Part shown: piece by piece, positions 5,706 through 50,646 of the stretch
Numbering within the stretch: position 1 is the first letter of the stretch
Layout of the letters: each line of letters opens with the position of its first letter
Virus record (IMG/VR): IMGVR_UViG_3300028920_000034
Location: 62,001 to 126,000 of that record
Direction: 5' to 3' (one strand)
Origin: a virus
Length of the DNA stretch: 64,000 nt
Notes under the pieces: model-generated
Databases searched by the model: none
Seen by the model: only the letters and a program-made list of their open reading frames with translations
Told to the model about the DNA's origin: nothing
Made by a program: the position numbers and the translations under genes

Positions 5706-5779
5706 TTGGCACGCTCATTGCTTCTGCTTAATTAACCTTATCTCCCCTCTTAGAAGAGAAGAGTCTTGAGTGTCTCCGG
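5706..5779 (+). promoter_or_regulatory. Intergenic repeat A: sigma-54-like promoter with leader hairpin, antisense to late genes
   Basis: TTGGCACG at 5706-5713, four bases, then TTGC at 5718-5721 give a perfect -24/-12 match. TTAATTAACC follows, then a leader holding the inverted repeat CTCTTAGAAGAG, then AGAGTCTTGAGTGTCTCCGG. The same block recurs at 26.4, 30.1, 41.6 and 50.6 kb. Here it points right, into the 3' end of the spike gene, opposite to all coding. Sigma-54 recognition is inferred from consensus alone. Confidence 0.6.
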
Positions 5780-5780
5780 T

Positions 5781-6722
5781 TCACTTCCCCTTGTTGGTGG
5801 TGCTGTTCACGTCTGGCGTGTACGCCGGCCATGCCCCGGCGGGGGGACCCGTGGGAGCTCCTGGCGATGAGGTTGGGTGCGTGTGGGTGGCGAAGATGGT
5901 CACTGCCTTGCCCCACAGCTCCAGGAGCTTGTTGCCGAGCACAAATGGCTCGGTGCCCCCGTCCCCGAGGGTGCTCCCCCCGGTAACCCCGAACGCCTCC
6001 GCTGCCACGGTCACGGACTTGCCGGCGAGCTGGATCAAGTCTTTCTTCGCCTCCACGTACACCCCGTCCTTTTGGACCAGCTTGATCCCGTCCTTGTCGG
6101 TACTCACGATGTTGCCGTTGGAGTCCCGGATGGTCACCCCCTCCTTGCCGTCTGCCGCGTTCAACAAGATGCTGGTGCCCGTGTGGTCCTGCACCTGCAC
6201 CGAGCCGTCCTTGTCCACGCTGATGAAGCTGTAGCGGTCCTCACCGTCTGGGCTGTTGTCCTTGGACTGGTGCCACTTGATCGTGACGGACTCCTTGCCT
6301 GGGTCATCCGAGAATTCAATGGCGTGCCCGTTGGGAGTAGTCCAGGCGCGCGTCGTGGGCGGGTTCTTCTGACAGGAGCTCGGGGTGTCCAGCACGCCGT
6401 CCGGCTTGCCCCACCAGCCACCCACGTACATCGGAAACCTGGAGTCGCCGTTCTCGAAGGCGATCATCACGGGGTCGCCTTCGGCTGGCACATGGAAGAT
6501 ACCCGCCTGGGCCCCGGCCCCGAGGGCCACCGGCCACGCCCAGTCCGCCAGGAGCTCGTCCCCGGCCACCGCCGGGCAGCTCACGATGATGCGGCCCTTC
6601 ATGTCCGGGTCCTCATTGTCCTCGCACACGCCACGGTACAGGCCGTACCAGCGGTCATAGTGCTCGAGGCCGTACATGCGAAGGTTCTGAATGAACCCCA
6701 GGAATGCGTCGATGGCGTCCAT
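5781..6722 (-). CDS. Tail spike / baseplate central spike, gp5-gpV (VgrG N-terminal OB) type
   Basis: A 313-residue protein. Residues about 25-110 have the OB-fold signature of gpV/VgrG spikes: YRGVCEDNEDPDMKGRIIVSCPAV, then W-A-W-P, a GDPVMIAFENGD box and P-MYVGG. Residues about 150-260 show short DxDG-type strands (SVDKDGSVQVQD, STDKDGIKLVQKDG) typical of the triple-stranded beta-helix. The end carries THTHPTSSPGAPTGPP, an HTHP tip motif seen in this family. It forms the membrane-piercing needle below the hub. Its ATG overlaps the hub stop codon. No lysozyme domain is present, unlike T4 gp5. Confidence 0.85.
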   Translation of the reverse strand: MDAIDAFLGFIQNLRMYGLEHYDRWYGLYRGVCEDNEDPDMKGRIIVSCPAVAGDELLADWAWPVALGAGAQAGIFHVPAEGDPVMIAFENGDSRFPMYVGGWWGKPDGVLDTPSSCQKNPPTTRAWTTPNGHAIEFSDDPGKESVTIKWHQSKDNSPDGEDRYSFISVDKDGSVQVQDHTGTSILLNAADGKEGVTIRDSNGNIVSTDKDGIKLVQKDGVYVEAKKDLIQLAGKSVTVAAEAFGVTGGSTLGDGGTEPFVLGNKLLELWGKAVTIFATHTHPTSSPGAPTGPPAGAWPAYTPDVNSTTNKGK

Positions 6723-8170
6723 CAGTCCCTAAGCCACCCACCGGGGCCGTACAGCTCCCGGGTCCAGTTGAAATTCGCGTCAGTGCTTACCGCCGCTCGC
6801 TTCTGTAGAGCTTTCTTCGCCGCCTTTTCCACGTAGGGAGAGCTCGCGCGCTGGCTCATCCAGTTGGCGATGCTGGCGCTTGGGAAGCCCCTGGGCATCA
6901 GGTCCACGTCCTGCTTCGCCACGCTCTCACCGAGGGACCAGTTGATCTCGGACACCCGGTACATCCCGGTGAAGTAGTCTCCCACCCCTTCGGCGCGCAC
7001 CAGGTCGTCTGGTAGCAGAGACGGCACCCCGATGCTCGAAACCTTGGCCTTGGCCCCGTGCGCCTCCGCGTTGTAGTCAAACAGGTTCTTGAGTTTGCTC
7101 CCGATGAACTGCTCACGCCCGGGGATGGGCACGTTCTGGCTTCCCTTGGCATCATGCGGAAGGTTCTGGCCGCTCTGGCTGCGCTGGGCCGGCTGGTCCG
7201 ATGGCGCTGCCGGAGCTTTCTTTCCGCTGTAGGATTTGGCCTGGCTGGTGGCCATATCCGTCTTCTCAGTTGGGTGCAGCTTCACCCGCTTGTCATCTGG
7301 GCCAAGGAACCTGGTCACGGCCGCGCGCACGGGCAGGAACATCGCAGTGGACTCTGAATCGAACGAGTCCATCGGAATCACGTTGTTGGCCAGGTCGAGC
7401 TGGCCGCGGAACCGGAACGTCCAGTCCGCTTGCTTCGGCTCGCGCACGTCGCTGATCCGGAGCACGTTGCCGCCCACGATCACGGCCCGACAACAGCACC
7501 TCGCCGCCAGGTGCTTCAGGAACTGCCAATCGTTCAGGCCACCCTGGCAGATCTGCTCCTTGTCGGAATCCAGGATGGTACGCGCATCCTGGGAGAACCG
7601 CTTGGAGTCATACTTCGTGTCTCCGTTCCAGTCGATGGTGAACCCGTACCGCTTGGCAACGAGCTCAATCACCTGGCGATAGGTGGCCCTGTTCTTCCGC
7701 TTCTTGCCGCCCTGGCTGTCCGCGAACGTGTGATTCCAGATGAGGGCATCCTGGTTCTGGAGCTGCGTCGTGAGCCACCCGAAACTGGTGCCGCGGAGCG
7801 AGACGGTGAACTCGTCCCCGAAGCTCACGTCCGGCTTGAGCATCATGTAGTATTTGAGCGGTCCAAGATGGCTGGAATGGCGCGTGTAGCCCCAGCGCAC
7901 GGCCATCGTGTTGCCGATAGTGAGCCAGTGAGATCCGAGGAGCTCCAGGGCCTCCTGGTAGGTAGGCGGAGTGAGGTTGATCGTTACCTCCCCGAAGCCG
8001 CTCATCGTCTCCTTTTGCTGCATCGAAGAGAACCACGGAAGGTGGACAGCCGGCTTCACCTGGCCGGGCATCACCGAGAAGCTGGCCCACTTGCCAATGT
8101 CCGCAGCGTAGACGTTGCACTGCATCATCAGCCCCAGGAAGTCATAGGGCTCTGTGGGAGTCACAGCCAC
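6722..8170 (-). CDS. Baseplate hub protein, gp27 / gpD-like
   Basis: About 482 residues. GTG at 8170 is chosen because AAGGAGG lies nine bases upstream. The protein resembles the hub of contractile tails, a gp27/gpD-type ring that holds the spike trimer. Visible features are an N-terminal beta domain, a central segment with YRQVIELVAKRYGFTIDWN and NDWQFLKHLAARCCCRAVI (the conserved W-x-F-L-x-x-L-A box of late-control gpD/VgrG proteins), and a C-terminal domain with YFTGMYRVSEINWSL. A low-complexity linker (about 305-345) is unusual. It is coupled to the LysM-like gene upstream and the spike downstream. Confidence 0.8.
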   Translation of the reverse strand: MAVTPTEPYDFLGLMMQCNVYAADIGKWASFSVMPGQVKPAVHLPWFSSMQQKETMSGFGEVTINLTPPTYQEALELLGSHWLTIGNTMAVRWGYTRHSSHLGPLKYYMMLKPDVSFGDEFTVSLRGTSFGWLTTQLQNQDALIWNHTFADSQGGKKRKNRATYRQVIELVAKRYGFTIDWNGDTKYDSKRFSQDARTILDSDKEQICQGGLNDWQFLKHLAARCCCRAVIVGGNVLRISDVREPKQADWTFRFRGQLDLANNVIPMDSFDSESTAMFLPVRAAVTRFLGPDDKRVKLHPTEKTDMATSQAKSYSGKKAPAAPSDQPAQRSQSGQNLPHDAKGSQNVPIPGREQFIGSKLKNLFDYNAEAHGAKAKVSSIGVPSLLPDDLVRAEGVGDYFTGMYRVSEINWSLGESVAKQDVDLMPRGFPSASIANWMSQRASSPYVEKAAKKALQKRAAVSTDANFNWTRELYGPGGWLRD

Positions 8171-8171
8171 G

Positions 8172-8498
8172 CTACTGGTCCTCCTTGGCACGGATGCTGA
8201 CCATCGTTCGGATCTGGCTCGGAATGCGAATCATGTCCCCGAAACGCAAGTCCATAGGCAGTAGACGGAACCCATTGATCTCCGCGATCACGTCCCACAG
8301 GATGGAGCTGTTCAGGTAATCGTTCGCCAGCCGGTCAATGCGAACATGGTTCTCCACCCGCAGCGTCGTGTCTGAATCCGCCGGGCTGATCTTTCGGATG
8401 ACAGGCAGGTCCCACCACTCCACCTCGCGTGTACCATCGCTACCCGTCATGAGCTGCGCGAAGTTGAGCCGGCTGTAGGGGTCAATTTCAATCGTCAT
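8172..8498 (-). CDS. LysM-like baseplate protein (gp53 / gpX type)
   Basis: A 108-residue protein. The core pattern R-x-D-x-L-A-N-D-Y-L then LWDVIAEINGFRLLPMDLRFGDMIRIPS matches the LysM-like fold of P2 gpX and T4 gp53-type wedge proteins, where LWxxIAxxN and GxxIRIP are conserved. In that family it helps connect hub and wedge. The first 60 residues (YSRLNFAQLMTG...WWDLPVI) form an extra N-terminal strand region. It begins just before the tape measure stop, in the usual order of contractile tail genes. Confidence 0.75.
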   Translation of the reverse strand: MTIEIDPYSRLNFAQLMTGSDGTREVEWWDLPVIRKISPADSDTTLRVENHVRIDRLANDYLNSSILWDVIAEINGFRLLPMDLRFGDMIRIPSQIRTMVSIRAKEDQ

Positions 8499-8505
8499 GG
8501 GTTAC

Positions 8506-11500
8506 CTATTGCGAGCCGGCGCTCCGGACCTTGCTCGCGTTCGCACGTTGCCTGATCAGCCGAGCTCGCTTGGACTGCGCGCTCAGGTAGTCGCCAATGT
8601 CACCTTGGATGTAGACATTCACCTGGAACGTCCGGATGGCCTGGGTGAGCTGCGCGATGGCCACGCTCACGTCCGCCATGGCCGCTTTCGTGTCCTTGGA
8701 GATAGCGGCGCTCACCTGGCGCTCTGGCGTCCTTGCTCGGAACCCAGCTCGAGCCCCAGCACCAACTCCACCAGTGCCAGTGGCCGGAGCTTTCCCGAGA
8801 CCCTTCGTGCCGATCTTCTTGTAGCTAATCCCGGAGACCGTGGACCCCTCGCCCACCTTCAGGCGCGGATCGAACTTCTTGAGGGCCGCGATGATCTTGG
8901 GGCTCAACTCGACGTTTTTGCCCGTGAGGGCGCCCAGGTCCAGGCCCTTGAAAATCCGCTGCGCTCGAGCTCCCTGGAGACGACGGAAGATCCCACGGAA
9001 TGCTTCGCGTTGCTCCCTGGGTAGATCGTACAGATTTTCGCCCGTCTTGAGCTGCGCGTAGAGCTGCGTGAGCTGGTCCGCCCGGTCGCGCACCATCTTC
9101 CGCTGGAACTTCATCATGCCCTTGCTGAGTGCCTGTTGCATGGACATGCCCTTGTCCATGTACTCCTTGACCAGGGGCATGACGTTTTGCCCGAATATGT
9201 CCATCCGGATAGCCTTGGCGCGAGACCCCATCCGGGTGGCCCACCAATCGTAGAACTTGACCCTGGCTTGGCGCTCAATCTTCGTCTGCTTCTTGATTCT
9301 GTCCTTGAGATCCTTGGTTGAAACGCTCACGCCTTTCAGGCCCATCTTGTCCGCTTGTTGGCGAAGCGCATTGATCTTGCCCAGCACTGCCTGGAGCTCA
9401 CTTGTCTGCTTTGTGAACTTCTTTTGCTTTTCGAGTTGAGCCATCTGGAGCTTGATCTGAATCGCCGCTGCATCGCTCGCTGCCCTGGTGAGCTTCTGAT
9501 ACATCTTGGCGCCAGTCTGGCCCACGGACACCATTTCGCCGCCCACCTTGCCTCGCATCTTCGCGTAGGCCGCAGCGGACTGGTTCGCTCCGCTCGCGCT
9601 CGCGCGTGCCACGTTGGTGTTCCCCTGGGCAGCCGCGGAGCTCACATTCGTCCAGGTGGTGGCCGCGTTGGAGCTGGTGACGTTCATGTGGCCGGCCATC
9701 TGCGTGGTCACCTGGGCCGAGCTCATGCCCAGGAAGTTGAGGGCCGCTCCGCCCACCTGTTTCATGCCGTTCCAGAGCCAGTCAGCCGTCTCCTTGATCT
9801 GCTTCTGATTGGTGACCTGTTTATCCCTGGACACCGTGGTCGCCCTGGTGATGTTCTTGGACGCTTCGATCTGGTCCGCCTGCATCTTGGCGACCATCTT
9901 GTCCACGCTGGACGTGATGCTCGAGATGTTGACGCCAATCGTCTCGGTAGCTCCACCGAAGAACGACTTGAGCCCGTTGCCTACGGCGCTGAATCCGCCG
10001 CGCACCTTGTCGCCCACCGCACTCGCCGCGGATTTGATCCCTCCCCATGCCTTGCTTGCCATAGACTTCAGGCCGCCCCACGCTTTGGAGAAGAACCCGG
10101 TGATGGCCCCAGCCACCTTTTTCGCCGCGTTCTTGACCGCGCCGAACACCGCCAGTGCCACCTCCTTGATCTTGCGGAACGCCCAAGTGATGCCATCGTA
10201 GATCGCCGTGCCGATCTTCTTGTAGAACCCGATCACGGTACTCCACACGGCCTTGATCGCAGACCAGGCCGCAGTGGCCACCACCTTGAGCTTCTCCCAC
10301 ACCCAGCCAACCGCGCTGTAGATAGCATTGCCGATGGCAGAGAACACCTGGCTCGCTACGCCCCAGACGGCTTTGATTCCGTTCCAGGCCGCCGTGGCGA
10401 GCTGCCACAGCTTGCGGAACGGCCAGGAGATCATCGCCCAGATACCCTCCGCCAGCGTCGTCAGGCTGTCGCCCATGTAGCGCCACACCGCGAGCACCGC
10501 GCTCACCACCCCGGACACCACCTTGTAGAGCATCCGCCAAGGGAAGCTGATCACCTGCCAAATGGCGTTGGCCACCCACTTCAATCCTACCCACAGCCCC
10601 TGGAACGCCGTCTGCACCGCGCCAACCGTCCAGCTCGCTGCCTTCCACAGCATCCGGAACGGCCACGTGATGGCGTCCATGATGCCACGGCCGGTAGAAC
10701 CGAGCGAGGCGTACAGGGACTTCCAGCCCTCCACGATCAACGTGTAGAACAGCTTGATGCCATTCCACGTCATCTTGAAGGGGAACAGGAGCGCCTCGAG
10801 GAGGAAGCGCCCCATGCTCTTGAAGAAGCCCACGAAGTCCCCGCCGGCCAGCTTTTTGACCGCATCGATCAACGGCTTGATCACGCCCCACATCACCTTG
10901 AACGGTCCGGCGATGGCGTCCAGGATTCCCTTGCCTCTGACGCTGAGTGAGTCCCGCAGCTTGCCCCACAGGTGGCTCACCAGGTTGACCACGTTTTCCA
11001 CCACGCCACCGAGGTAGCGGAATGGGAACGTGATCGCCTTGAGCATGGCAATGCCGGCGTACTTGAAGAACCCCAGCACATCGCCCTTCCAGAGCGCCTT
11101 GATCGCTTTGATCACGGGCTGAATCAGGTCCCACAGCATCAGGAACGGGTGCAGGATGATCTTGGCAATGAGCTTCGCCGTCTTGCCCATCTGGCCCGTG
11201 AGAGCGTAGAACGCCACCCCCAGAGCTGCGATCACAGCGATGGCAGCCACCACTGGCCAGAATGCGATGCCCCACTGGGCAGCCATTCCGGCCGCCCAGG
11301 CGTACATCTTGGTGAGCATTCCGGCGAGCGTGGAATACATCGTGGAGGCGATCCACATCAGGCCCCGCAGCATGAGCCGCCTGGTGGACCCGAAGAACAT
11401 CATCGTGATGAAGATCCCACCGATCAGCTTGCCCTTTTGGGCCACCCCTTTCTCGAAGCCCATGGACCAATCGGTGAAGAACTTGTAGACCTGACTCCCG

Positions 11501-13515: not shown

Positions 13516-13569
13516 GGGTTGCTCGCCTACCTGGCGGGTCCAGTGGATCTAATCAGTACAATCGTGGCG

Positions 13570-15287: not shown

Positions 15288-15880
15288 CCCGTGATGGAGA
15301 ACTCCTCGATCCGGTCCGGGTGCAGCTCGAGCTCCATCAGGGAGATCTCGCTGGAACTGGCATCGAAATCACTCCCAGATTTATACCTAATTGGTAGGCA
15401 ATCCATCAGGAGCCACGCCCGGGCCGGCACCCGAAGGATGCCCCCCACGTCCGGGAGGAACCCCCGAGCCACCTGGGCGACTGCCTGGAGCTCGGCACCA
15501 GCTTCACCGATGGCCGTGGCGCTGTACCCGGTAAACTGGATCAACAGGAGATTGCGCCGCTTGCCGCTCATGGATCCAAACGGCCCCCCGGGGCTCCCCT
15601 TGACCGTGGCCACAATCCACCGCCAGAACTCCGAATCGTAGAAGCTGGCCCCGCGGGTCAGCGTGATGGAGCTCACGGATCCACCTGAAATCAGGTGCCG
15701 CTTGAACGGGTGCGTGCCCTCCGCGAGCTCCTCCACCTCGAGCTGCACCTCGGGAGCGGTAATGGACTTGAAGGAAAGGAGCGGGTCCAGGGCCCAGGGT
15801 GGGAACGCCAAGCTGTAGGACACGTCCATCAGGTGAAACTGGTACACCTGGAGCCGGTCCAGTAAACGGATCCGGGGCAT
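15284..15880 (-). CDS. Tail tube-like protein, second gp19-type paralogue
   Basis: A 198-residue protein that resembles the tube gene just upstream. It shares a SVSSITLTRGASFYDSEFWRWI segment (VTLQRGVTKAFTGFWDWI in the tube) and a DASSSEISLMELELHP end (DATSSEISLAELELTC in the tube). This is the gp19 tail-tube fold. The copy is about 40 residues longer, with an insertion near residues 100-150. It may be a tube-initiator or terminator ring, as paralogous tube proteins are in some contractile tails. Confidence 0.72.
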   Translation of the reverse strand: MPRIRLLDRLQVYQFHLMDVSYSLAFPPWALDPLLSFKSITAPEVQLEVEELAEGTHPFKRHLISGGSVSSITLTRGASFYDSEFWRWIVATVKGSPGGPFGSMSGKRRNLLLIQFTGYSATAIGEAGAELQAVAQVARGFLPDVGGILRVPARAWLLMDCLPIRYKSGSDFDASSSEISLMELELHPDRIEEFSITG

Positions 15881-25216: not shown

Positions 25217-25633
25217 CTACACACCTTTCACGATTTTCTCGTACTCCGCATCCTTGTTGGCCGCGTCACCCTGGCGAGCGAAGTAGGTAGCGCGGCCGGT
25301 TCCCTTCCTTGTCAGCTTGCGGGAGCCCTTGCGTACCTGTCCAGCCTTTTGCATGGCCGCCGTGCAGATGGCGAACGCTTTGGACAGGCCCTCCTTTCCC
25401 TTTTCGCCTTTCTGGTACACGTCCACCACGCACCGGCGGATCCCACGTGGGTTCTGGCTCACCAGCTCTCCCTCGCTGTCGCGCTTCTCGCGAATGGGCA
25501 CCAGGCGCTTGCCGCCATCGAACACCCAGGACGGCTCCCCGGTGATCTCAGGCTCCGGGTGCGTCCAGAGCTCCCACTCCCCCTCGTCCTCAAGCTGGTG
25601 GGCCAGGCCCTCGTATAGCTCACGGATGCTCAT
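25217..25633 (-). CDS. Unknown protein, phage-associated basic C-terminus
   Basis: 138 residues. The sequence EKGKEGLSKAFAICTAAMQKAGQVRKGSRKLT resembles the short motif (SKAFAICTAxxxKAG) found in several phage structural and minor head proteins. The rest is mixed alpha/beta. Its ATG overlaps the stop of the DUF6582-like gene. It is probably virion or assembly related. Confidence 0.5.
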   Translation of the reverse strand: MSIRELYEGLAHQLEDEGEWELWTHPEPEITGEPSWVFDGGKRLVPIREKRDSEGELVSQNPRGIRRCVVDVYQKGEKGKEGLSKAFAICTAAMQKAGQVRKGSRKLTRKGTGRATYFARQGDAANKDAEYEKIVKGV

Positions 25634-26334
25634 CGATCACCTCGTTCCCAGGAGCCAGTGGACACCTGGTGTACCCAGTTGTTCAGTGCGGCGTGGGCCT
25701 GGCGGAGAGAGCCATGGAACTGATCCACCGTGGCTTGCTGTGCCGGGTTGAGGTGCCTCCGCCTCTCCCTGGGAAAATCGTCGCTCATGGCGATCTTGGA
25801 CAGAAAGTCATTCCACACCTTTAGGGCACGGCGTGGGTCTCCTTTCCTGCGTGCCTCGGTGAGCCCCTCGCTCTCCTGGGCAAACATAGCCGCGATGCTG
25901 TTGGGGTCATCCTGGGCGCCAGGCACGCCCTGGGGCTTTCCACCGCCAAGGCGCTGGCCATCCGCCAGGAGACCACGCATCGCTCCCAGGCGCTCGCGCA
26001 CGTCCGCGCGATCCCCGAGGGTAGCAATGGACTCGGTGCGCCCGCGCCGCTTCCCCTTGCGCTTCCCTTTGCCTTGGAACCGCTCCCAGACCTTGGGCCA
26101 CCGCTTCTTGACGGCCTTGAATACCTGGTCCTTGTGCTTCTTGTTGTCGGGCCACGTGGCGTAGGTCAGCGCGGTCATCGCCTGCTTCGCGCTCTGGATC
26201 GGAAACAGCCGCTCGCCGGGGATGGCGAAGTCCTTGTCCGATAGCGCCTCCCGCGTTGACTGGGCCATCTCCCCGAAGTGCTCCGCATCGTTCACCTGGT
26301 CCACTGCGCCCTGCAATCGGTCCTTGATTTCCAT
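25630..26334 (-). CDS. DUF6582-like protein with internal L-T-E site, first gene after promoter B
   Basis: 234 residues. The segment DFAIPGERLFPIQSAKQAM followed by HKDQVFKAVKKRWP (about 35-81) resembles the DUF6582-type motif often found next to or fused to phage head proteins. A Lys/Arg-rich hinge (88-100) leads to a C-terminal helical domain. LTE|A at 158-161 is a possible prohead protease site. GGAGGACAG precedes the ATG, and repeat B ends 9 bases upstream, so this gene heads a transcription unit. Confidence 0.55.
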   Translation of the reverse strand: MEIKDRLQGAVDQVNDAEHFGEMAQSTREALSDKDFAIPGERLFPIQSAKQAMTALTYATWPDNKKHKDQVFKAVKKRWPKVWERFQGKGKRKGKRRGRTESIATLGDRADVRERLGAMRGLLADGQRLGGGKPQGVPGAQDDPNSIAAMFAQESEGLTEARRKGDPRRALKVWNDFLSKIAMSDDFPRERRRHLNPAQQATVDQFHGSLRQAHAALNNWVHQVSTGSWERGDR

Positions 26335-26342: not shown

Positions 26343-26416
26343 CCGGAGACCCTCTTGACTCTTACTCTCCAAAGGGAGAGATAAGGTTAATTAAGCAGAA
26401 GCAACACCCGTGCCAA
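26343..26416 (-). promoter_or_regulatory. Intergenic repeat B: sigma-54-like promoter driving the neck-tail genes
   Basis: On the minus strand TTGGCACG (26416-26409), four bases, then TTGC (26404-26401) match the -24/-12 consensus exactly. TTAATTAACC and a leader with CTCTCC-CTTT-GGAGAG follow. The repeat ends at GTCTCCGG, which merges into the ribosome binding site of the gene at 26334. Copy E at 50.6 kb is nearly identical in the opposite orientation. Here the orientation fits expression of the downstream genes. Confidence 0.65.
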
Positions 26417-30051: not shown

Positions 30052-30120
30052 TTGGCACAAGATGTGCTTCTGCTTAATTAACCTTATCTCCCCTCTTAGA
30101 AGAGAAGAGTCTTGAGTGTC
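30052..30120 (+). promoter_or_regulatory. Intergenic repeat C: weaker sigma-54-like element, antisense to late genes
   Basis: TTGGCACA at 30052-30059, four bases, then GTGC at 30064-30067: two differences from the other copies at otherwise invariant positions. The leader from TTCTGCTTAATTAACC to GAGTGTC is identical to copy A. It points right, into the 3' end of the gene at 30129. The changed -24 and -12 bases suggest weaker or lost activity. Confidence 0.5.
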
Positions 30121-37094: not shown

Positions 37095-37124
37095 ATTATC
37101 AATACACGGTTCTACACGGGTCAA
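37095..37124 (-). promoter_or_regulatory. Sigma-70-like promoter after the portal gene
   Basis: On the minus strand TTGACC (37124-37119), 18 bases, then GATAAT (37100-37095), with an AT-rich context unlike the coding sequence. It would drive the gene at 36973 and the prohead core and capsid genes downstream. Confidence 0.55.
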
Positions 37125-41265: not shown

Positions 41266-41529
41266 CTACCGGGCGCTCGCATTCCAGTGCTCACCGAGCT
41301 GCTGTAGCCGGAGCTCCAGGAGCTCGCTCTGGCGGAGTCGCTGGCACGCCACCCACACGTGCGCCCAGAACCCCACCGACAACACCATCCCGCACGCGCA
41401 CACGGCCGCAGCGATGTTGTCCATGATGGTGCGGTCCATGATCCCGAACAGCACCGTCCCCAACAGGAACAGCGCGCCGAACACCAGGAACACCCACCCG
41501 ATCATCTTCGGTTTCCGATCTTGTTTCAT
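41266..41529 (-). CDS. Small protein with two membrane helices, first gene after repeat D
   Basis: 87 residues. Two hydrophobic helices (about 9-30, IGWVFLVFGALFLLGTVLFG, and 38-60, AAVCACGMVLSVGFWAHVWV) and a charged C-terminus. ATG at 41529 has GGAGATTGGAG upstream; an earlier in-frame start lacks a site. It is the first gene of the repeat D transcript. Holin is possible from topology, not shown. Confidence 0.55.
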   Translation of the reverse strand: MKQDRKPKMIGWVFLVFGALFLLGTVLFGIMDRTIMDNIAAAVCACGMVLSVGFWAHVWVACQRLRQSELLELRLQQLGEHWNASAR

Positions 41530-41568: not shown

Positions 41569-41637
41569 ACCCTCAAGACTCTTCTCCTCTAACAGAGAGA
41601 GATAAGGTTAAGTAAGAAGAAGCAACAGCCGTGCCAA
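41569..41637 (-). promoter_or_regulatory. Intergenic repeat D: sigma-54-like promoter upstream of membrane protein and head genes
   Basis: On the minus strand TTGGCACG (41637-41630), four bases, then TTGC (41625-41622), all matching. The leader has TTACTTAACC in place of TTAATTAACC, and a hairpin CTCTCTGTTAGAGGAG with different bases but retained pairing. It points towards the gene at 41529 and further to portal and capsid genes. Confidence 0.62.
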
Positions 41638-41646: not shown

Positions 41647-41910
41647 CTACTTGCGGCGCTGGGCATCGAAGGCCGCACGGGTGGCCTCCACCATCGCCCT
41701 GGTGGCACCGTTGATGTGCTCCCACACGCCGTCCAGCGTGGCCTCGGAGAGCTGGCCTCGCTCGAGCTGGGTTGCGAGCTGGGTGGCCTGGGCCCCAAGG
41801 GCGCGGAGGGCCGAGACGGCACTCTCGCGGTCCTCGCCGGCCGCCGGCCGGACAGTGGGCACGTCCGCCCGCATCCGAACCTCCTCTTTCAACTGTGCCG
41901 CGTAGCTCAT
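41647..41910 (-). CDS. Small helical protein
   Basis: 87 residues, helical and Ala/Arg-rich (ESAVSALRALGAQATQLATQLERGQ, HINGATRAMVEATRAAFDAQRR). GAGG precedes the ATG. It is the only gene between the sigma-70-like promoter at 41970 and repeat D. No family is recognised. Confidence 0.5.
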   Translation of the reverse strand: MSYAAQLKEEVRMRADVPTVRPAAGEDRESAVSALRALGAQATQLATQLERGQLSEATLDGVWEHINGATRAMVEATRAAFDAQRRK

Positions 41911-41969: not shown

Positions 41970-41997
41970 AATATGGAGGGGATACAAGCCCTGTCAA
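41970..41997 (-). promoter_or_regulatory. Possible sigma-70 promoter inside an inverted repeat
   Basis: TTGACA (41997-41992), 16 bases, then CATATT (41975-41970). The -35 box is the centre of the perfect inverted repeat AAGCCC-TTGACA-GGGCTT (41986-42003), which could also be a terminator stem for the gene ending at 42014. The weak -10 makes the call moderate. Confidence 0.4.
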
Positions 41998-42013: not shown

Positions 42014-44245
42014 CTACCTGGTGATGTACTGCGCGTTCACGGTCGCGCGCTGCGTCACCTTGGCCGGATCGCCATCCTTGGAGTGGTTCCAGTTTCCGAT
42101 CTGGAGGTACACGCGCGCCTGGTGACCCACCTTGTGGGTGGGGAGCTTGGGCTGCCGTTTCTCGTAGATGATGCTCTGCATCCCGAGCATCTTCCTGGGC
42201 CCCTCGTCCACGGACCAGCCGTGCGAACTCGCCCAGCCCTGGATGGCTCGCTTGAGCTCCCAGAGCTCCTTGCTCGAAAGCGGCTTCTTGCGCGTGCTCA
42301 GGGCGCTACTCATCTGGGTGTACTGATGTGGTGAGCCCTGATACTCCACCTTGCTGGTGAACTTCGGGCGCTTGATCCCAAGGGGCCGGAGCAATGGCCA
42401 CAGGGCCGCCAGGTCCTTGGGCACGGTGTCACCCTTGATCAGCTTGGGGCGCGCCGCCTCGTCCAGGTCCTCGAGCCCAGCGTCCTGGCGGAGCTCACCC
42501 AGGAGCCCACCGAGGTTGTCCTCGTCCTCCACGGACACGACGTTGCGGTTGCCGCCGGTGGCGATCTCCTCCTTGAACAGATCGGTGAGGGGGCGCCAAT
42601 CGTACTTCCGGTCCCCCTTCCACACCTTCCGCATGTCCACCATGGTCTCGTCCAGCATCTTGGGCTTGACGTTGGCGTTCTTGTGCTCGGTGTAGGTGGA
42701 CACGCTGAATTCGGTCATCCTGGGCGGAATTCGCACGATCATGGTGTGCTTCCCCAGCTTGGACTTCGTGACCCACCGCCCGGACACGGTGCCACCGGTG
42801 CCCTTGTCCCCGGTGAACCCCTTGACGCTGCCACCGATGGCCTTGCGGACCGCCTGGTCCAGCATCTTGATGATCATCATCTTGGCCTGGTGAAGCTGCT
42901 CGGGGCTGGCTGCCTCCCCGAGCTCCTGGTCCTCGAGCTCCATCCGCCCGCGCCCGCGCCCGGTCCCGTGCGGACCCTTGCCGTCCTGGACGCCGCTGCC
43001 CCGAGGTTTTCGACCACACTTGCCCTTGGCCTCCTCGAGCTCACCGAGGAGCTCACCGAGGGAGTCCTGACCCTCGTTCGCGGCGAACGGGCTACGCTTG
43101 TTGCCCGTGCCCAGCACGTACCAGCTCCCGGTGTTCGGGTCCTCGAAGTAACCCTTTTCCCCGCTCAGACCGTGGCCACCGTGGAACACGAGTCCCTGGC
43201 GCTCGGCCCACTTTTTCAGGTAGCCCTCGGAGCCGCGCTTCACCAGCACATAGCCTTGCGAGCTTCCCCGGTCAGGCGCCTTGTAGAGGCCCGCGTGCTT
43301 TTTCATGATGCCCTCGTCCAGCTCCCGCCCCTCGGGGAACAGCCCGGGCTGGCTGCCGGAGGGCATCTTGCTCGCCTTGCGGCGCCGCTTGTCGCGCATC
43401 TTCACGCGCTGCGAGGGCTCGTAGTAGTCCTTGCTGGTGAAGTAGCGATTGAAGATCTCATCCGCCATCATCCGGCCGGAAATCCGCAGCATGATCCCGT
43501 AGAACACCAGAGCCGCGTTGTCCGGGACAGCCCGAAGGTAGCTGCCCATCTTCGGGTGAACCTTGCTGGCGTTCCGAAGGAACATCTGAAATGCCTTGCG
43601 GGGAGCCCTGGCGATCACGTCCTGGGCATCGGGGATGTTGTCCGCGCCGAAAATGGCCGGGAGCTCCTCACGCGGCGCCGCTTCGATGGCGTCTCGAGTC
43701 TTCTTGAATAGGAGCATCTCAGGCCCGTGGCCGCCCTCGTCCTTCATCATTTTCAGCAATGGCGCGTCCACCTTGAACGAGCCAAGGCGACTGCGTTTCC
43801 CGCCGCTGCCCGTGGCCGCCCGCTTCTGGCGCTCGTTCAGGAGCCCAGCGTGGAACAGGATGTTGTCCGACTCCTCGAGCACCACCCCCATGAGGGCGCC
43901 CATCCGTTGCTCGTCCGTGCTCTCCCAGAGGTGCTTTCCCCACTTGCGCTGAATGTCCATTGCCACCTTTCGGGGCGTGAGCCCCTTGGAGCGCCACTTG
44001 AATCCGTGGTGTCCCTCTTCCGTTTCGCTATCGACCCAGGACTCCACGCTCAGGGCCCCTCCGCTGCGAATCGGCATGATGTAGATCACGCCGAAGGGCA
44101 CGTTCACCCCGATGGTGTCCGAGCCTTTGGTCCGGGAGTAGCTGGGGTTGGCGCCCACGGTTCCGTTGAGAATTCCGGCCACCTCGCCCCACCACTTCAT
44201 GAACCCCGTCTTGTCTTCGCGAGCAATCTTGTCCAGCGTTTTCAT
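42014..44245 (-). CDS. Multi-domain internal head protein candidate with three or more predicted protease sites
   Basis: 743 residues. Two linker helices of the LGELLGELxE type stand at about 396-405 and 579-590. L-E-E|A (403-406), L-G-E|A (442-445) and L-D-E|A (594-597) are candidate prohead protease sites, with L-D-E|G near 309-312 also possible. The protein would thus be cut into several pieces: an N-terminal alpha/beta part, a glycine/basic linker region, a beta-rich middle part and a C-terminal domain of about 147 residues. I recognise no enzymatic motif in any piece. It directly follows the zinc-ribbon gene. Confidence 0.62.
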   Translation of the reverse strand: MKTLDKIAREDKTGFMKWWGEVAGILNGTVGANPSYSRTKGSDTIGVNVPFGVIYIMPIRSGGALSVESWVDSETEEGHHGFKWRSKGLTPRKVAMDIQRKWGKHLWESTDEQRMGALMGVVLEESDNILFHAGLLNERQKRAATGSGGKRSRLGSFKVDAPLLKMMKDEGGHGPEMLLFKKTRDAIEAAPREELPAIFGADNIPDAQDVIARAPRKAFQMFLRNASKVHPKMGSYLRAVPDNAALVFYGIMLRISGRMMADEIFNRYFTSKDYYEPSQRVKMRDKRRRKASKMPSGSQPGLFPEGRELDEGIMKKHAGLYKAPDRGSSQGYVLVKRGSEGYLKKWAERQGLVFHGGHGLSGEKGYFEDPNTGSWYVLGTGNKRSPFAANEGQDSLGELLGELEEAKGKCGRKPRGSGVQDGKGPHGTGRGRGRMELEDQELGEAASPEQLHQAKMMIIKMLDQAVRKAIGGSVKGFTGDKGTGGTVSGRWVTKSKLGKHTMIVRIPPRMTEFSVSTYTEHKNANVKPKMLDETMVDMRKVWKGDRKYDWRPLTDLFKEEIATGGNRNVVSVEDEDNLGGLLGELRQDAGLEDLDEAARPKLIKGDTVPKDLAALWPLLRPLGIKRPKFTSKVEYQGSPHQYTQMSSALSTRKKPLSSKELWELKRAIQGWASSHGWSVDEGPRKMLGMQSIIYEKRQPKLPTHKVGHQARVYLQIGNWNHSKDGDPAKVTQRATVNAQYITR

Positions 44246-44249
44246 CCTG

Positions 44250-45149: not shown

Positions 45150-45151
45150 CC

Positions 45152-45811
45152 CTACCACCCCGGCGCCGGGCGCGCCTCGCGCGGCTTGAGCTTCACCTGG
45201 CCGTGAAGGAGCTGCATCCCGTATTCGGTCCAGAACTCCTTGGGGTTGTAGAACGAATCGATCTCCTGCCCCTGCTTCGCCAGGAGCACGAAGGGGAGGC
45301 GCTGGCTCTGGACTGCCTCGCTTCTGCGCCCGAGGCTCCACCCGTTGGGCAGGAGCACCGTGGTCTGCGGGTACATCTTGAGGGTGGCCAGCGTCTTGCG
45401 GAACACCTCCTGGGCGTCCAGCCCCTCGAGCTCATCCCAGCGCCCCGCCGTGGGGCCCTGGTAGAAGTAGCTGTAGGACTTCCCAGCGCGGCGGATCTTG
45501 ACCACCGATCTCTGATCGGCAAGGCGAGGGCGCGCCTCCATCAGCCCGGACTCCTCGCGGAGCTGCCCGAGGAGCTCACCGAGAGCGTCCCCCTCGAGCA
45601 TTTCGATGTTGCCCATCTTGCGGGGGCTGCCCTTCGGCTCTCCGCTCTCCAGGTCCAGCTCGAGGTAGTAGAGGTTGCCACCCTTGCCGGGCTTCTTGAG
45701 GCTCACCACGTAGGACTTGGCATCCGCTCCCGCGGTCACCACCTCCCACTCCTGGCCGTCCACTTCGATGGTCTCGTAGGGAACGGGGAGCATGTACTGG
45801 GTTGGGGCCAT
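45152..45811 (-). CDS. Two-domain protein with central targeting helix and L-M-E|A site
   Basis: 219 residues. A beta-rich domain (1-70) includes VVTAGADAKSYVVSLKK. The helix GDALGELLGQLREESGL (74-90) and L-M-E|A (90-93) lead to a second domain (97-219) with strands and a helix (DAQEVFRKTLATLKMYPQ). The organisation equals that of the three genes upstream at 46457, 47379 and 48084. I recognise neither domain. Confidence 0.58.
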   Translation of the reverse strand: MAPTQYMLPVPYETIEVDGQEWEVVTAGADAKSYVVSLKKPGKGGNLYYLELDLESGEPKGSPRKMGNIEMLEGDALGELLGQLREESGLMEARPRLADQRSVVKIRRAGKSYSYFYQGPTAGRWDELEGLDAQEVFRKTLATLKMYPQTTVLLPNGWSLGRRSEAVQSQRLPFVLLAKQGQEIDSFYNPKEFWTEYGMQLLHGQVKLKPREARPAPGW

Positions 45812-45820
45812 GGGGTCCTC

Positions 45821-46444
45821 CTACCGCTTCTCGCGGGTGGCGCTGAGTACCTTGAACGCCTTGTCCTTGCGGAGGCGTTTCAGCTCCAGGCCGGTGACGC
45901 TGGTGATCTCGTAGACGGTGCCGTGCTTCGGGTCCTCGCGGGAGCCCACGTTGCCGTACTCCTCCGCGCGATACCAGGGGTCCGTCTCCCTGGTCATCTT
46001 GCCGGTGGGCGGATTCACCGCCTTCACCTCCACACGCCACCGCACGTAGTCCTCCTCTTTCTCCTGGGGCTGCTTCTTGCCGGCGAGGAGGGCCTTGAGC
46101 TTGCGAGCGCGCTCGGGGTGGTACTTCTGATAGCCGGACTTGAGCCAGGTCTCGGTGCCCTGGCGGATCAGGTCATCCGCGATAGGGCGCTGAATGCGCT
46201 GCTCCTTGCCCATCGAATAGAGCTGTTTGTAGGTCACCGCATCGTCCGTCACCCGGGTCACGAAGATGCCACTGGGCGAGCTCGAGGCGCCCATGAAATA
46301 CACCTGGTTCGGGAAGATGGTCATCCCGCCGAGCTTGCGGAGACCGCCGGACCCGATGGCGTACATGGTCTCGTCCAGGGGCTCGTCCGAGCCGCCGCGG
46401 ATCTGCTCGAGTAGCCGGGCCAGCTTCTGGGTTCTGATGCTCAT
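45821..46444 (-). CDS. Internal head protein candidate with N-terminal targeting helix
   Basis: 207 residues. IRTQKLARLLEQIRGGSDEP then L-D-E|T (23-26) form the shared signal. The remainder is alpha/beta with Lys/Arg-rich parts (ARKLKALLAGKKQPQEKEED) and a final TGLELKRLRKDKAFKVLS. No family is recognised. The 25-residue leader would be removed by the prohead protease if the reading is right. Confidence 0.58.
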   Translation of the reverse strand: MSIRTQKLARLLEQIRGGSDEPLDETMYAIGSGGLRKLGGMTIFPNQVYFMGASSSPSGIFVTRVTDDAVTYKQLYSMGKEQRIQRPIADDLIRQGTETWLKSGYQKYHPERARKLKALLAGKKQPQEKEEDYVRWRVEVKAVNPPTGKMTRETDPWYRAEEYGNVGSREDPKHGTVYEITSVTGLELKRLRKDKAFKVLSATREKR

Positions 46445-46456
46445 CGTGTTCTCCTG

Positions 46457-47368
46457 CTACTTGACCGCCAGGTCACCCTTGGCGATGTGAATGGTGGCCA
46501 CCTTGGTGAGCCCCATGAACTTCAGTGCGCGCTTGGCCCCGGAGGCGTCCGGGGCCGTCATCACCAGGTGGAAGTCCGCCTGGCGGGGCTCCTGCATCCC
46601 GGGGAGCTGCACCTGCTTCAGGCGCACCGCCTGGCCGATGGCCTCGAGGGCCGGCCGCCGCATCTCTGCCCCCTCGTCCAACAGGAGCACCCCCTGGTTG
46701 GCCATGGTGAGCTCGCCTTCCACGTAGCGGCCGTTCCGCACCGTCCCGATCAGGCCCTTCATGCTCACCGTGTAGTGCGGGGCGCGAAGGGGCCCCTTCA
46801 CCATCTCCGCGATGCGCCTGGCGATCATGATCCTCCCGGACCCTGGCTGGCCGGTCAGGATGATCGGAATGTCCTGCATGATGGCCTTCAAGATCTGGTC
46901 CACCACCTTTTTCCGGACCGTCAGGTCCCGGAACTGGGTCATCCCGGGCCGGCTCGCGCGGGCCTCGGTGAGCGGCTCCGGTTCGCTGGCTCGCGGCGCG
47001 CGGATGGTCTCCAGGAGGGTGCCCAGCTTGGCCGCCCTGGTCTCCTCCACCGGGCCCAGCTCGCTCAGGTACAGATACCCTGTACCGTCACCGGACTCGA
47101 CCACGCACGCGGCTCCGCCGTCCGGGAGCTCGAAGCATGTCCGGCCGCTTTTGCTCACGGACTCCTCGAGCCCGAGCAATCCAAGGGCATGGGCAAAGCC
47201 TTTGCAGTCCTTGCTCTCGGTGAACGCGATCCACGCCGCTCCCGCCGGGGGGTCCGGCACTCCCAACGCATGGTCCCCATGCTTCGTGTAGGCCACGCTG
47301 TAGCCGCTGCGTTGCATCCGCCGGCTGATGGCCAGCATGGTCTTTCTGTACGGATGGCTGCGTCTCAT
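46457..47368 (-). CDS. ComM / Mg-chelatase-like AAA+ ATPase with removable N-terminal domain
   Basis: 303 residues; ATG at 47368 follows AAAGGAAG. The N-domain (1-115) resembles that of the gene at 48084. A linker helix KLGTLLETIRAPR and L-T-E|A (133-136) precede the ATPase. This has Walker A TGQPGSGR (172-179), then PLRAPHYTVSMKGLIG and GELTMANQGVLLLDE (Walker B, 218-232) and MRRPALEAIGQAV. These match ComM/YifB and ChlI, in which RxPHHxxSxxxLxG and GExSLAHxGVLFLDE are conserved. The C-terminus is short, so lid and sensor parts may be missing. ComM drives branch migration of DNA. Confidence 0.7.
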   Translation of the reverse strand: MRRSHPYRKTMLAISRRMQRSGYSVAYTKHGDHALGVPDPPAGAAWIAFTESKDCKGFAHALGLLGLEESVSKSGRTCFELPDGGAACVVESGDGTGYLYLSELGPVEETRAAKLGTLLETIRAPRASEPEPLTEARASRPGMTQFRDLTVRKKVVDQILKAIMQDIPIILTGQPGSGRIMIARRIAEMVKGPLRAPHYTVSMKGLIGTVRNGRYVEGELTMANQGVLLLDEGAEMRRPALEAIGQAVRLKQVQLPGMQEPRQADFHLVMTAPDASGAKRALKFMGLTKVATIHIAKGDLAVK

Positions 47369-47378
47369 GTGTCTTCCT

Positions 47379-48074
47379 TTACGCCGGCTTGTACTTGATC
47401 TCCACGGTGTCTCCCAGAATGCCTCGGAAGCCACTCCGGCTCGGGTCTCCGCGCCAATACTCGCGCCCCTTCAGGTAGCCCCATGTCGGATAGGGCTTCC
47501 TTCCTCGCGTGTTGTAGAGCTCGAAATGCTGATCTGCCTTTGATTTCGCCGGAAGGGGAACCTGTGCCCCCTTGAGCACACGTTCTTTTCGGACCACCTT
47601 GCGCTTGCGCTTGTCATACACCTCGTAATACTCGCGCACCGTCACCTTTGCGAGGGCCCACTTGCCAGGATCGGCTGGAACTGGCGACGGCTTGGCCGCT
47701 GGTTTACGTTTCACTCGGGGCGGGGGCGCCCACGCGGGGAGATCTCCGCCAGGCCCATCGAAACCCATGGCCCACTTGGGCACCTCGTCCTCGCCCAGTG
47801 CCTCTTCGCGGAGCTCACCGAGGAGCTCGCCCAGGGAGTCATGGTCCTCCTTGATCCCCTTGAGCACCCATGCCATGGCGTCTTCCTTGGTTTTGAAGCC
47901 GCTGGCCTTCACGTCACGGTTGCGGTAGTTGCGGACCAGCACGTCGCCGCGGGCCGCGCCCCACCCGGCTGCCATCGTTTTCCAGACGGAACCGAGAACC
48001 TTGTTCCCGCGCATGACTTCGTAGCTGTTGCCCTCATCGTTGTACTTTGGTGGAACCAATCTCGCCTTGGCCAT
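47379..48074 (-). CDS. Two-domain protein with central targeting helix and L-G-E site
   Basis: 231 residues. The N-domain (1-75) has YEVMRGNKVLGSVWKTM and KTKEDAMAWVLKGI, an alpha/beta fold. DSLGELLGELREEALGE|D (79-96) forms the linker helix with a cleavage-like site. The C-domain (100-231) is basic with WALAKVTVREYYEVYDKRKR and ends in strands. I recognise neither half. It is the second of four neighbouring genes with this organisation. Confidence 0.57.
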   Translation of the reverse strand: MAKARLVPPKYNDEGNSYEVMRGNKVLGSVWKTMAAGWGAARGDVLVRNYRNRDVKASGFKTKEDAMAWVLKGIKEDHDSLGELLGELREEALGEDEVPKWAMGFDGPGGDLPAWAPPPRVKRKPAAKPSPVPADPGKWALAKVTVREYYEVYDKRKRKVVRKERVLKGAQVPLPAKSKADQHFELYNTRGRKPYPTWGYLKGREYWRGDPSRSGFRGILGDTVEIKYKPA

Positions 48075-48083
48075 GATGCTCTC

Positions 48084-49448
48084 CTACTTCGTGAGTCCGC
48101 TGATGGTGAGCCATTTCGCCTCGCCGTCCTTGCCGGCGTAGAAGCCCACCAGAGTCACTCGGCCGCTCCCGGTGGACTTGTACTCCTCGTTCACGGCGAG
48201 GCGCCACCCGAGGTACTTCGATCCGGATGGTGCGTACTTCTGCACCATGGCCTTGGCATGGCGTCCAATCTGCACCGGGTCGATAAGCGGAAGCCCTTGC
48301 ATGTTGCTCGGAATCTTCGCCTCACCCAGGAACTCGCCTTCCAGCTCAGTGGCCTCGTACTGCATGGCCCGCTTCACCTGGAGAGGCTTCACCCACGCCG
48401 GGTGGCCGTCCAGGTCCCCGTAGGGGTTGAAACAGACCAGGTAGTGGCCTCTGTCCATGCTCCCCCGGATCAGCTTGAGGAGCGCCGCGGAGCCACCGGG
48501 GGCGATCAGCCGAACCAGGTCGCGCGGAAGGGGCCCCTGGGCGTCACCCTTGGTGGGGTACACGCGCACCACCTTGAACTGTTGGCCGTCCGCCTCGAAG
48601 GGCTGCCCGGGGCGCGGAAGGGGCGCCCGCTCCTCGAGGTACTCTCCTCCCAGCTCAAAGTCCTCCCTCACATTGGACTTGGGCTTCTTTCCGTCCTTGA
48701 GGGCCTGAACGATCTGGCGCGCAATCACCCTGGCACTGTTCCAGTGCGGATCCTTCACACCGTACAGCTTGGCCAGGTACTGCATTTCAGGCACCGTCAG
48801 GTTGGCCGCCTCCATCTTGCGCTGGAGGATGACAGCGAACGCATCGAAGCCGTACTGGTCACCCGGATACTCGCCGTCCAGGTGCCCCTTGCCCATCCGC
48901 TTGTGATAGGCGTAGAACTCCTTGGCCATCTTGTGCAGGTCCGCACCCGTGGCCTCCTCGAGACTGTCCTCGCTGCGAAGCTCACCGAGAAGTCTCTTGA
49001 GCTTCCCAGCCATCGCATCGCCCTCCAGTTGGCTGGGCGCGATCTCGCTCAGGAACACGTACCCGGTAAACGTGGCCATCGGCTTGAACGCTCCACGGAA
49101 CGGATCCAACACCACGTAGGCGTAGACACCCTTGCCAGGGCCGATGAACTCTTCGCGCTCCACGCCGTTGATGTTCCCGCTTCCCTCGTGTCGCCACCCA
49201 CCGCCGCGCTGCATGGCCGTGGAAAGCAAGGAGCGGAACTCATCGTACTGAGCTGGACCACCGGGAATCGGATAGCCCATGCCGTCCTTTTCCCGGTTGG
49301 TGTACTCGAAGGTGAGCCACTTGGTACCCTCTGGCGGATTCGGAATGCGGAACTGGCGCACTCCGCCGGACCGCCCTTTCACCTTGAAGCCATGCTTCTT
49401 GAGCGAAGATCCGATGGCGGAGATCAGCTTTGGGTAATGCTTGCTCAT
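48084..49448 (-). CDS. Two-domain protein with central targeting helix and L-E-E|A site
   Basis: 454 residues. The N-domain (1-145) shares a pattern with the ComM-like protein: GFKVKGRSGGVRQFRIPNPP then GTKWLTFEY and FTGYVFLSEIAP. KLKRLLGELRSEDSLEE|A (149-166) is the linker. The C-domain starts with a helix (MAKEFYAYHKRMG), has NVREDFELGGEYLEERAPLP near 245, and holds a beta-rich end. No enzyme motif is visible. Confidence 0.58.
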   Translation of the reverse strand: MSKHYPKLISAIGSSLKKHGFKVKGRSGGVRQFRIPNPPEGTKWLTFEYTNREKDGMGYPIPGGPAQYDEFRSLLSTAMQRGGGWRHEGSGNINGVEREEFIGPGKGVYAYVVLDPFRGAFKPMATFTGYVFLSEIAPSQLEGDAMAGKLKRLLGELRSEDSLEEATGADLHKMAKEFYAYHKRMGKGHLDGEYPGDQYGFDAFAVILQRKMEAANLTVPEMQYLAKLYGVKDPHWNSARVIARQIVQALKDGKKPKSNVREDFELGGEYLEERAPLPRPGQPFEADGQQFKVVRVYPTKGDAQGPLPRDLVRLIAPGGSAALLKLIRGSMDRGHYLVCFNPYGDLDGHPAWVKPLQVKRAMQYEATELEGEFLGEAKIPSNMQGLPLIDPVQIGRHAKAMVQKYAPSGSKYLGWRLAVNEEYKSTGSGRVTLVGFYAGKDGEAKWLTISGLTK

Positions 49449-49457
49449 GGTGTTCTC

Positions 49458-50024
49458 CTACCGGTACTTGCCACCGCGGATTTGAAAGCTGTCCTTGGGC
49501 GCACGGCCGGTCTTCTTGTCGCCGTACATCTGAAGGGCGCCCGGGGTGTAGCCTTCGATCATCTCGCTGTCCGCAATGGTGACAAACGTGCCGATCTGCC
49601 CGGCAATATCCCCAGGGGTGCTGTCATCGGACATGGCTTGCTCGCCCGTCTTGTAGATGCTCCCGCCCTTCATGGTCTTCCCGGTGGCCCGATACTTGAG
49701 CACCGGCTCACGGTCCCACCACTGGAGCTCCACGGCCATGGTGTAGCTGCCACCGTATCGCCCGCTCGCGCGCACGCGGAGGATCTTCCCCTTCACCCCC
49801 CACTTGTACTTCGCCAGGGAGAGCTTCGCCGCGTTGGACAGCGGGCCTTTAAGCCGGCGCGCCGCTTCCTCGAGCACACCCACCATCATGGCGTCCCGGC
49901 GAGCTGCCAGAGAGCCAGCCGTGGCCTCGTCCAGGACGGCTTCGGTCTCGTCCACTAGATCCATCTCCACGTCGTGCCCCTCGCGGAGCATCCCCAGAAG
50001 ATTGAGTAGCTTGCTGGTGTCCAT
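49458..50024 (-). CDS. Internal head protein candidate with N-terminal targeting helix
   Basis: 188 residues; ATG at 50024. DTSKLLNLLGMLREGHDVEM then L-D-E|A (31-34) form the shared signal. The rest has a helix (AARRDAMMVGVLEEAARRLKG) and a beta sheet part (GKILRVRASGRYGGSYTMAVEL), ending in a basic segment. No family is recognised. Confidence 0.55.
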   Translation of the reverse strand: MDTSKLLNLLGMLREGHDVEMDLVDETEAVLDEATAGSLAARRDAMMVGVLEEAARRLKGPLSNAAKLSLAKYKWGVKGKILRVRASGRYGGSYTMAVELQWWDREPVLKYRATGKTMKGGSIYKTGEQAMSDDSTPGDIAGQIGTFVTIADSEMIEGYTPGALQMYGDKKTGRAPKDSFQIRGGKYR

Positions 50025-50032
50025 GGTACGCC

Positions 50033-50482
50033 TCACTTCCAGTCCGGGAGCTCCACCGCCACCGCCTTGAAAAGCTCCTCCGCGGCACCACCGAGATACC
50101 CGTGGCACTCGTTCATGTCCTTGTTGACCTTGAGCATGAGCTCCACCATGTCAGGAATGCTGCGACCGTCACCCCGACCAGCTTGTTTCATTGCCGGCTC
50201 GAGTTGCTTCATCAGCTTCTCGGCCTTGGCCAGGTCCGCACGATGGGACTTCACCATATCGTGGAACGCTTCGATGTTGGCCATGAGCTGTTTGTACTGT
50301 GGGGGCTTGAACGCAGGCTTCCACCTGGACTCATCCAGCTCCTCGTCCTCCCCGAACATCTCGGGCTCGTACTCCTGGAGCCAGGCATCGAAGCCCTCCG
50401 CGGGCTCATTGGTCTCCTCGGGCTCGAGGCCGAGCTGGGAGCGGATGGATTCGATCAGGTCTCTTCCGGTCTCGGTGGGCAT
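50033..50482 (-). CDS. Internal head protein candidate with N-terminal targeting helix
   Basis: 149 residues. GRDLIESIRSQLGLEPEE (6-23) is a clear copy of the shared helix. A canonical L-x-E|A does not follow, which is an exception in the set. An acidic stretch (about 26-52) precedes a coiled helical body (QLMANIEAFHDMVKSHRADLAKAEKLM). GGAGG precedes the ATG. No family is recognised. Confidence 0.55.
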   Translation of the reverse strand: MPTETGRDLIESIRSQLGLEPEETNEPAEGFDAWLQEYEPEMFGEDEELDESRWKPAFKPPQYKQLMANIEAFHDMVKSHRADLAKAEKLMKQLEPAMKQAGRGDGRSIPDMVELMLKVNKDMNECHGYLGGAAEELFKAVAVELPDWK

Positions 50483-50572
50483 TGTCGCCTCCTGGTGTGT
50501 TCTGCCTAGTGTCCTGCATATCCTACATGGCGGACACCTGACAAGTCACGCGGATTTTTGGCCCCCCGATTT

Positions 50573-50646
50573 TTGGCACGCCTGTTGCTTCTTCTTAATT
50601 AACCTTATCTCTCCCTTTGGAGAGTAAGAGTCAAGAGGGTCTCCGG
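50573..50646 (+). promoter_or_regulatory. Intergenic repeat E: sigma-54-like promoter, antisense to late genes
   Basis: TTGGCACG at 50573-50580, four bases, then TTGC at 50585-50588, a full match, with T-rich sequence upstream. The leader with CTCTCC-CTTT-GGAGAG and TCAAGAGGGTCTCCGG is nearly identical to copy B. It points right, into the 3' end of the small membrane protein gene. Confidence 0.6.

Follow-up and report, generated by a model that had tools for sequence, protein, structure and literature searches.

Why should a phage whose genes all lie on one strand carry near-identical copies of a short intergenic element with a sigma-54-like core, most of them facing against every gene? The question is raised by a window of 64,000 nucleotides (nt), bases 62,001-126,000 of the 153,114-bp virus record IMGVR_UViG_3300028920_000034 (G000), in which a first-pass annotation had noticed five such copies. 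The reading favoured here, to which a probability of about one half is given, is that the element is a regulatory cassette particular to one lineage and built on a sigma-54-type core. Copies lying with the genes (sense) would supply a promoter and a leader, and copies lying against them (antisense) would serve as antisense promoters or as sites of parked polymerase.

Genomes compared

The element comparisons rest on G000 and on IMGVR_UViG_3300029258_001212 (G001; 153,540 bp). Both genomes look complete because their ends repeat, with direct repeats of 147 bp in G000 (C1 1-147 and 152968-153114) and 144 bp in G001; the archive entry for G000 carries no completeness value, and the end repeats mark that record as a complete genome. 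Genes were called by dynamic programming with our own gene finder, trained on long open reading frames (ORFs). All ~223 genes of G000 were on the minus strand and all ~226 genes of G001 on the plus strand, a strand call backed by capsid, portal, sheath, helicase and recombinase matches. Family-library scans covered part of the phage proteins. Across 202 orthologues, median amino-acid identity was 94.6% and divergence at four-fold sites was 16.4%.

The phage is contractile-tailed and encodes a T4-like capsid protein, portal, sheath and tape measure. Its closest cultured relatives are ~30-33% identical by capsid, and a similarity search found no similar DNA in cultured phages. Relatives of the capsid were sought in bacterial genomes for host identification, and none was found.

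Copies of the element and their orientation

The five copies were all present at the coordinates, on the strands and with the sequence first described: copy A at window 5706-5779 (+), copy B at 26343-26416 (-), copy C at 30052-30120 (+), copy D at 41569-41637 (-) and copy E at 50573-50646 (+). Compared with one another, they are repeats of 69-77 nt, inverted or direct, with 76-95% identity. A full sigma-54 match had been claimed for four of the five, and four do read exactly TTGGCACG-N4-TTGC; copy C reads TTGGCACA-AGAT-GTGC and is the sole copy with an imperfect -12 box. The -24 box and -12 TTGC lie at 5706-5713 and 5718-5721 in copy A, at 26416-26409 and 26404-26401 in copy B, at 41637-41630 and 41625-41622 in copy D, and at 50573-50580 and 50585-50588 in copy E. 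In copy A, the core TTAACCTTATCT follows at 5732-5743.

When the search was extended to the whole genome, 12 copies were recovered, 11 of them with the exact core. The twelfth, at G000:50582, is divergent, with TTTCTCTATACCCTATCT in the middle of the consensus. G001 carries all 12 at syntenic places, its contig being in the opposite orientation. The orthologue of copy C in G001 has canonical boxes and another hairpin type.

Four copies are sense (G000 1678, 88343, 103564 and 140045) and eight are antisense to the only gene strand (15783, 24022, 42735, 50582, 59395, 67706, 92052 and 112573), a split compatible with random; within the window, A, C and E lie against the genes. The copies are intergenic, and most span the gap from the stop codon of one gene to the start codon of the next. 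In a genome of 64% G+C, the element is rich in A+T: gaps that it fills have a G+C of 0.42-0.50. In both genomes, a called gene begins after each of the four sense copies, its ATG lying 5, 6, 14 or 39 nt past GAGGGT (14 nt in copy B, 39 nt in copy D). After the antisense copies, no convincing plus-strand genes or conserved ORFs were found, and plus-strand terminators were not above shuffles.

The sigma-54-type core

Cores were scored with a matrix built, spacer ignored, from 42 intergenic sense sites of the E. coli sigma-54 map obtained by chromatin immunoprecipitation sequencing (PMC4591121). In G000, ten copies scored 19.4 bits, one 19.0 bits and copy C (G000 92052) 14.6 bits, against 15.1 bits for the best site outside the elements. 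In G001, 12 of 12 copies scored 19.4-19.6 bits and the best other site 15.8 bits. The E. coli sites themselves had a leave-one-out median of 15.7 bits and a maximum of 19.7 bits. With the same matrix, the relative G004 had no site above 14.5 bits. At N5, TGGCAY and TTGC were paired 11 times, against 0-2 times for every other spacing from 1 to 11, and the exact N5 matches are all elements.

Over the 24 copies of the two genomes, the GG at -24 and the GC at -12 are invariant (24/24), and the full consensus YTGGCACR-N4-TTGCW is kept in 22; the exceptions are copy C (GTGC) and the G001 copy at 1031 (GGCATG). The other changes in the -24 box (T or C at the first base, C or T at the seventh, G or A at the eighth) are those tolerated in listed sites. 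A full consensus is expected in about 1e-5 of random 75-bp stretches, and this expectation, together with repeats of 69-77 nt at 76-95% identity, means that the copies are not chance. After the repeats themselves, the sigma-54-type core is the best-supported fact about the element; as first claimed, it is borne out by the matrix scores, the gap to other sites, the invariant GG and GC, and a spacer that drifts in the antisense copies.

Selection and exchange between copies

Between G000 and G001, the conserved blocks diverge by 1.6% in sense and 2.7% in antisense copies, compared with 16.4% at four-fold sites (P 2e-11 and 6e-18, respectively). The antisense spacer diverges by 22% (7/32; Fisher P 1e-4 versus the blocks), near the neutral rate, and the antisense hairpin (19% over its alignable part) and tail (33%) are close to that rate or exceed it. 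In sense copies, spacer, hairpin and tail are nearly frozen, with 2 changes in 95 alignable positions. Since the antisense copies keep their boxes while the spacer drifts, they are not decaying remnants. Retained boxes around a drifting spacer are the pattern that -24/-12 recognition would predict.

The same conservation invites another explanation, namely that the element is the site of a phage-encoded DNA-binding regulator, stoperator- or operator-like and used in both orientations, its likeness to sigma-54 promoters being incidental or partial. Points in favour of such a site are the length of the conserved blocks outside the sigma-54 boxes, selection on copies of either orientation, intergenic placement genome-wide and the several helix-turn-helix (HTH) proteins encoded by the phage. 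It is made doubtful by a full sigma-54 consensus that chance would so rarely supply, by a spacer that drifts as sigma-54 predicts and by the known stoperator class, which loses function when its site is reversed (PMC9283540).

At 42735 and 92052, G000 and G001 differ in hairpin type and in an AA/TT pair, and within G000 the copies at 42735 and 67706 are identical across 65 nt. The copies have exchanged sequence, which also makes their blocks more alike. This exchange bears on the view that the element is a mobile or recombinogenic promoter-stem-loop (PeSL)-like or repetitive extragenic palindromic (REP)-like cassette, kept mainly as a patch of homology for gene shuffling. Transcription is not the main role of the cassette in that view, so orientation would be random, as a 4:8 split allows; the different hairpin types at orthologous places, the filling of stop-to-start gaps and the relatives at 50-72% capsid identity that keep the gene order and have no element would also fit. 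This view is nevertheless unlikely, given that 12 of 12 places are common to genomes 16% diverged at four-fold sites, that specific blocks are under strong selection, that no terminal inverted repeats were seen and that none of the proteins scanned matched a transposase.

Anatomy of the element

The consensus of the 24 copies is YTGGCAYR-N4-KTGC-TTCT-K-YTTAMTTAACCTTATCT-(hairpin, 15-16 nt)-AAGARTC-(AA or TT)-GAGKGT-NNYYN. The element is 74-75 bp long and identity between copies ends at ~74-80 bp, so that no upstream activator site is shared.

The hairpin arms vary between copies, yet they pair better than re-paired arms. Energies were computed on short excised stems. Of 2000 permutations, 6 reached the observed covariation on the reverse strand and 45 did so on the forward strand. 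Every copy whose reverse strand pairs better by 3 kcal/mol or more is antisense, and there the reverse strand is the mRNA. Retained pairing and this strand preference suggest that the hairpin also serves the read-through mRNA, whichever way the element lies.

A box followed by a hairpin with covarying arms could also be a nut-like signal, in which a pyrimidine-rich box and a hairpin in the nascent RNA alter termination, and the boxA-boxB order of lambda offers some likeness. Several hairpin types, however, pair well only on the opposite strand, and a directional RNA signal would be lost in eight copies because the RNA made in the gene direction carries the complement; a nut-like role is accordingly very improbable.

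Other identities for the element were rejected. An intrinsic terminator was ruled out because neither strand has a U-run following the hairpin, and a known RNA family because the window gave no Rfam match above gathering score. Inspection ruled out a sigma-70 promoter on either strand, boxes or spacing being poor; the only -35-like box is broken in part of the copies by the AA/TT flip.

Proposed function

For the sense copies, the simplest mechanism is a sigma-54 promoter followed by a leader that is short and structured. Host RNA polymerase carrying RpoN would bind the -24/-12 core, and transcription would start near TTAACC. This leader would comprise the hairpin and a GAGGG, which is placed 5-6 nt before the ATG in two copies; in the other two, the ribosome site would lie just downstream of GAGGG. 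All four copies run straight into a gene.

Two options are considered for the antisense copies. They may give rise to antisense transcripts, an option with a precedent in Pseudomonas phage PAK_P3, a lytic phage with many antisense RNAs, described as early, over its structural genes (PMC4933390). Alternatively, stable inactive closed complexes may impede transcription in the gene direction. This roadblock option was drawn because E. coli has many silent sigma-54 sites, intragenic or antisense and seemingly transcriptionally inactive under the conditions tested (PMC4591121). The cassette probably spread by recombination within one phage lineage.

Several findings weigh against this reading. Only four of the 12 copies have a gene downstream in the right orientation, and the conserved stretch runs well beyond the sigma-54 contacts, into TTAACCTTATCT, AAGAGTC and GAGGGT. 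Gene conversion could keep the boxes alike without selection on each copy. Neither an RpoN gene nor a classical sigma-54 activator gene was recognisable in the phage, the sole Sigma54_activat match being a Mg-chelatase/ComM-like AAA+ protein in which no GAFTGA loop was seen, and no upstream activator sequence shared among the copies was found. An activator could come from the host, whose RpoN is likewise presumed.

A more speculative extension, which we regard as doubtful, is that RpoN acts over the whole single-strand genome, the four sense promoters switching on chosen genes while the eight antisense copies simultaneously silence or pace other operons. The infection programme would then be tied to a nitrogen or stress signal of the host or to a phage-triggered activator. 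As a rule, phages rely on the main sigma factor or one of their own, and targeted searches of the literature (5.4 million papers) found no description of a phage with many sigma-54-type promoters. With twelve selected copies in two genomes, the sigma-54 idea can be tested directly, and the predominance of antisense copies poses the question of how silent-polymerase sites could regulate a densely packed genome.

Neighbouring genes and other promoters

Copies B and D had been placed directly upstream of gene starts, and both do precede called ATGs. Copy B leads into a gene of 234 amino acids (aa) with no assigned function (window 25630-26334, -), the first of a run into tail genes. Copy D leads into a gene of 87 aa with a weak membrane-protein match (41266-41529, -), upstream of the portal/capsid region. 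The "late region" setting first described proved too narrow, as copies also flank genes for a ParB-like protein, a UvsX-like recombinase and a Holliday-junction resolvase and a DNA-methyltransferase operon, in addition to baseplate genes. The proposal of late-gene promoters stands insofar as the four sense copies lead into genes. It fails as a general account, since an element of which eight of 12 copies oppose every gene is not simply a late-promoter set, and the sense copies serve early or auxiliary genes in addition to structural ones.

Element-free gaps hold sigma-70-type promoters in the gene direction. One, TTGACC-N18-GATAAT (37095-37124, -), lies upstream of the protease/capsid genes, so that the capsid operon has its own promoter; another, TTGACA-N16-CATATT (41970-41997, -), lies upstream of the gene at 41647-41910 and of sense copy D. 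Because such promoters precede them, the late genes do not rely solely on the elements.

The ParB-like gene (G000:14862-15749) lies 33 nt from the element at 15783, and this proximity raises the idea that the elements are ParB partition sites. About 12 dispersed sites would recall KorB of RK2. The idea is nonetheless very unlikely to be right and was set aside: the copies share neither a conserved palindromic half-site nor a conserved palindrome of ~14-16 bp, their only inverted repeat is the variable hairpin arms, and no ParA was found in the phage. Better palindromes exist elsewhere. The distant relative G004 has a ParB homologue and no element but 24 palindromes CGCAA-N4-TTGCG, and the analogous CGCACG-CR-CGTGCG is present in this phage outside the element.

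The G004 palindromes are 14 bp long and dispersed, against 0.22 expected (L100-L107; e.g. G004:C1:22495, 37168, 51520), and are candidate partition sites because G004 also encodes the ParB homologue. CGCACG-CR-CGTGCG, one base off per half-site relative to G004, occurs exactly four times in the window (15079, 45028, 58759 and 60897), as candidate ParB sites. A further palindrome, GATTCGAATC, occurs seven times in the genome against 0.12 expected (window 15021, 36861, 37176, 58840, 60883 and 60930); its sites are mostly intergenic, some in gaps with sigma-70-type promoters, and it is a possible operator.

The AAA+ protein named above is short and magnesium chelatase/ComM-related, with an N-terminal half of no assigned identity (window 46457-47368, -). 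Three tandem 123-nt repeats, 60-78% alike, lie beside copy A (5266-5643). A 54-nt direct repeat, 89% identical, lies at 59821-59874 and 59982-60035, close to the stop-codon end of the gene at 60032.

Distribution in other genomes

The core, alone or with the 3' block, was present in no other contig among 2.9 million viral contigs. The 26-base core had no match in 84,980 species (one genome each), which ruled out a host-derived repeat. Relatives at 68-72% capsid identity (L124, L125 and L130) and at 51-56% (G004, G005, G006, L126 and L128) have much the same gene order and no element. As the relatives keep the gene order without it, the cassette is a recent gain in one lineage or was lost elsewhere. 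The relative G005 has a repeat family of its own, seven copies of ~80-160 nt with the inverted repeat CTAGTC...GACTAG (L114-L115; C1 2482-7363 and 34502-34642).

The rival explanations rank in the order phage regulator site, PeSL-like recombinogenic cassette, ParB sites and nut-like signal.

Comparison with known systems

The PeSLs of T4-like phages are reportedly composite promoter/stem-loop cassettes, small and dispersed in the intergenic gaps of myoviruses and shuffled by recombination. The element resembles them in its dispersal, its hairpin and the exchange between copies. PeSLs are said to join a sigma-70-type early promoter to a terminator, whereas the core here is sigma-54-like and not sigma-70, no U-run and no terminator were seen, and the copies are mostly antisense. 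The element family offers a clean test of cassette spread and sequence exchange.

Stoperators of cluster A mycobacteriophages are likewise many asymmetric sites in short intergenic gaps genome-wide (PMC9283540). They are 13-bp sites whose orientation is strikingly correlated with transcription (PMC9283540); the element is 74 bp, lies four times with and eight times against transcription and has no identified repressor. The start-associated sequences and extended start-associated sequences (SAS/ESAS) of cluster K mycobacteriophages are also dispersed intergenic repeats by start codons, with an inverted-repeat part and a variable spacer, but their sequence differs and almost all lie in one orientation, linked to gene starts (PMC3203893). 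PAK_P3 provides a lytic-phage precedent for antisense transcripts over structural genes; in the part of that account used here, they are reported without a shared promoter element (PMC4933390).

The element is set apart from bacterial sigma-54 (RpoN) promoters by its presence on a phage in twelve near-identical copies, by its conserved leader of ~50 bp and by the lack of both a shared upstream activator site and a known activator. In its boxes and 4-base spacer, the substitutions that it tolerates and its matrix score, it is like the promoters of the E. coli map, where the sites, too, are often intragenic or antisense (PMC4591121).

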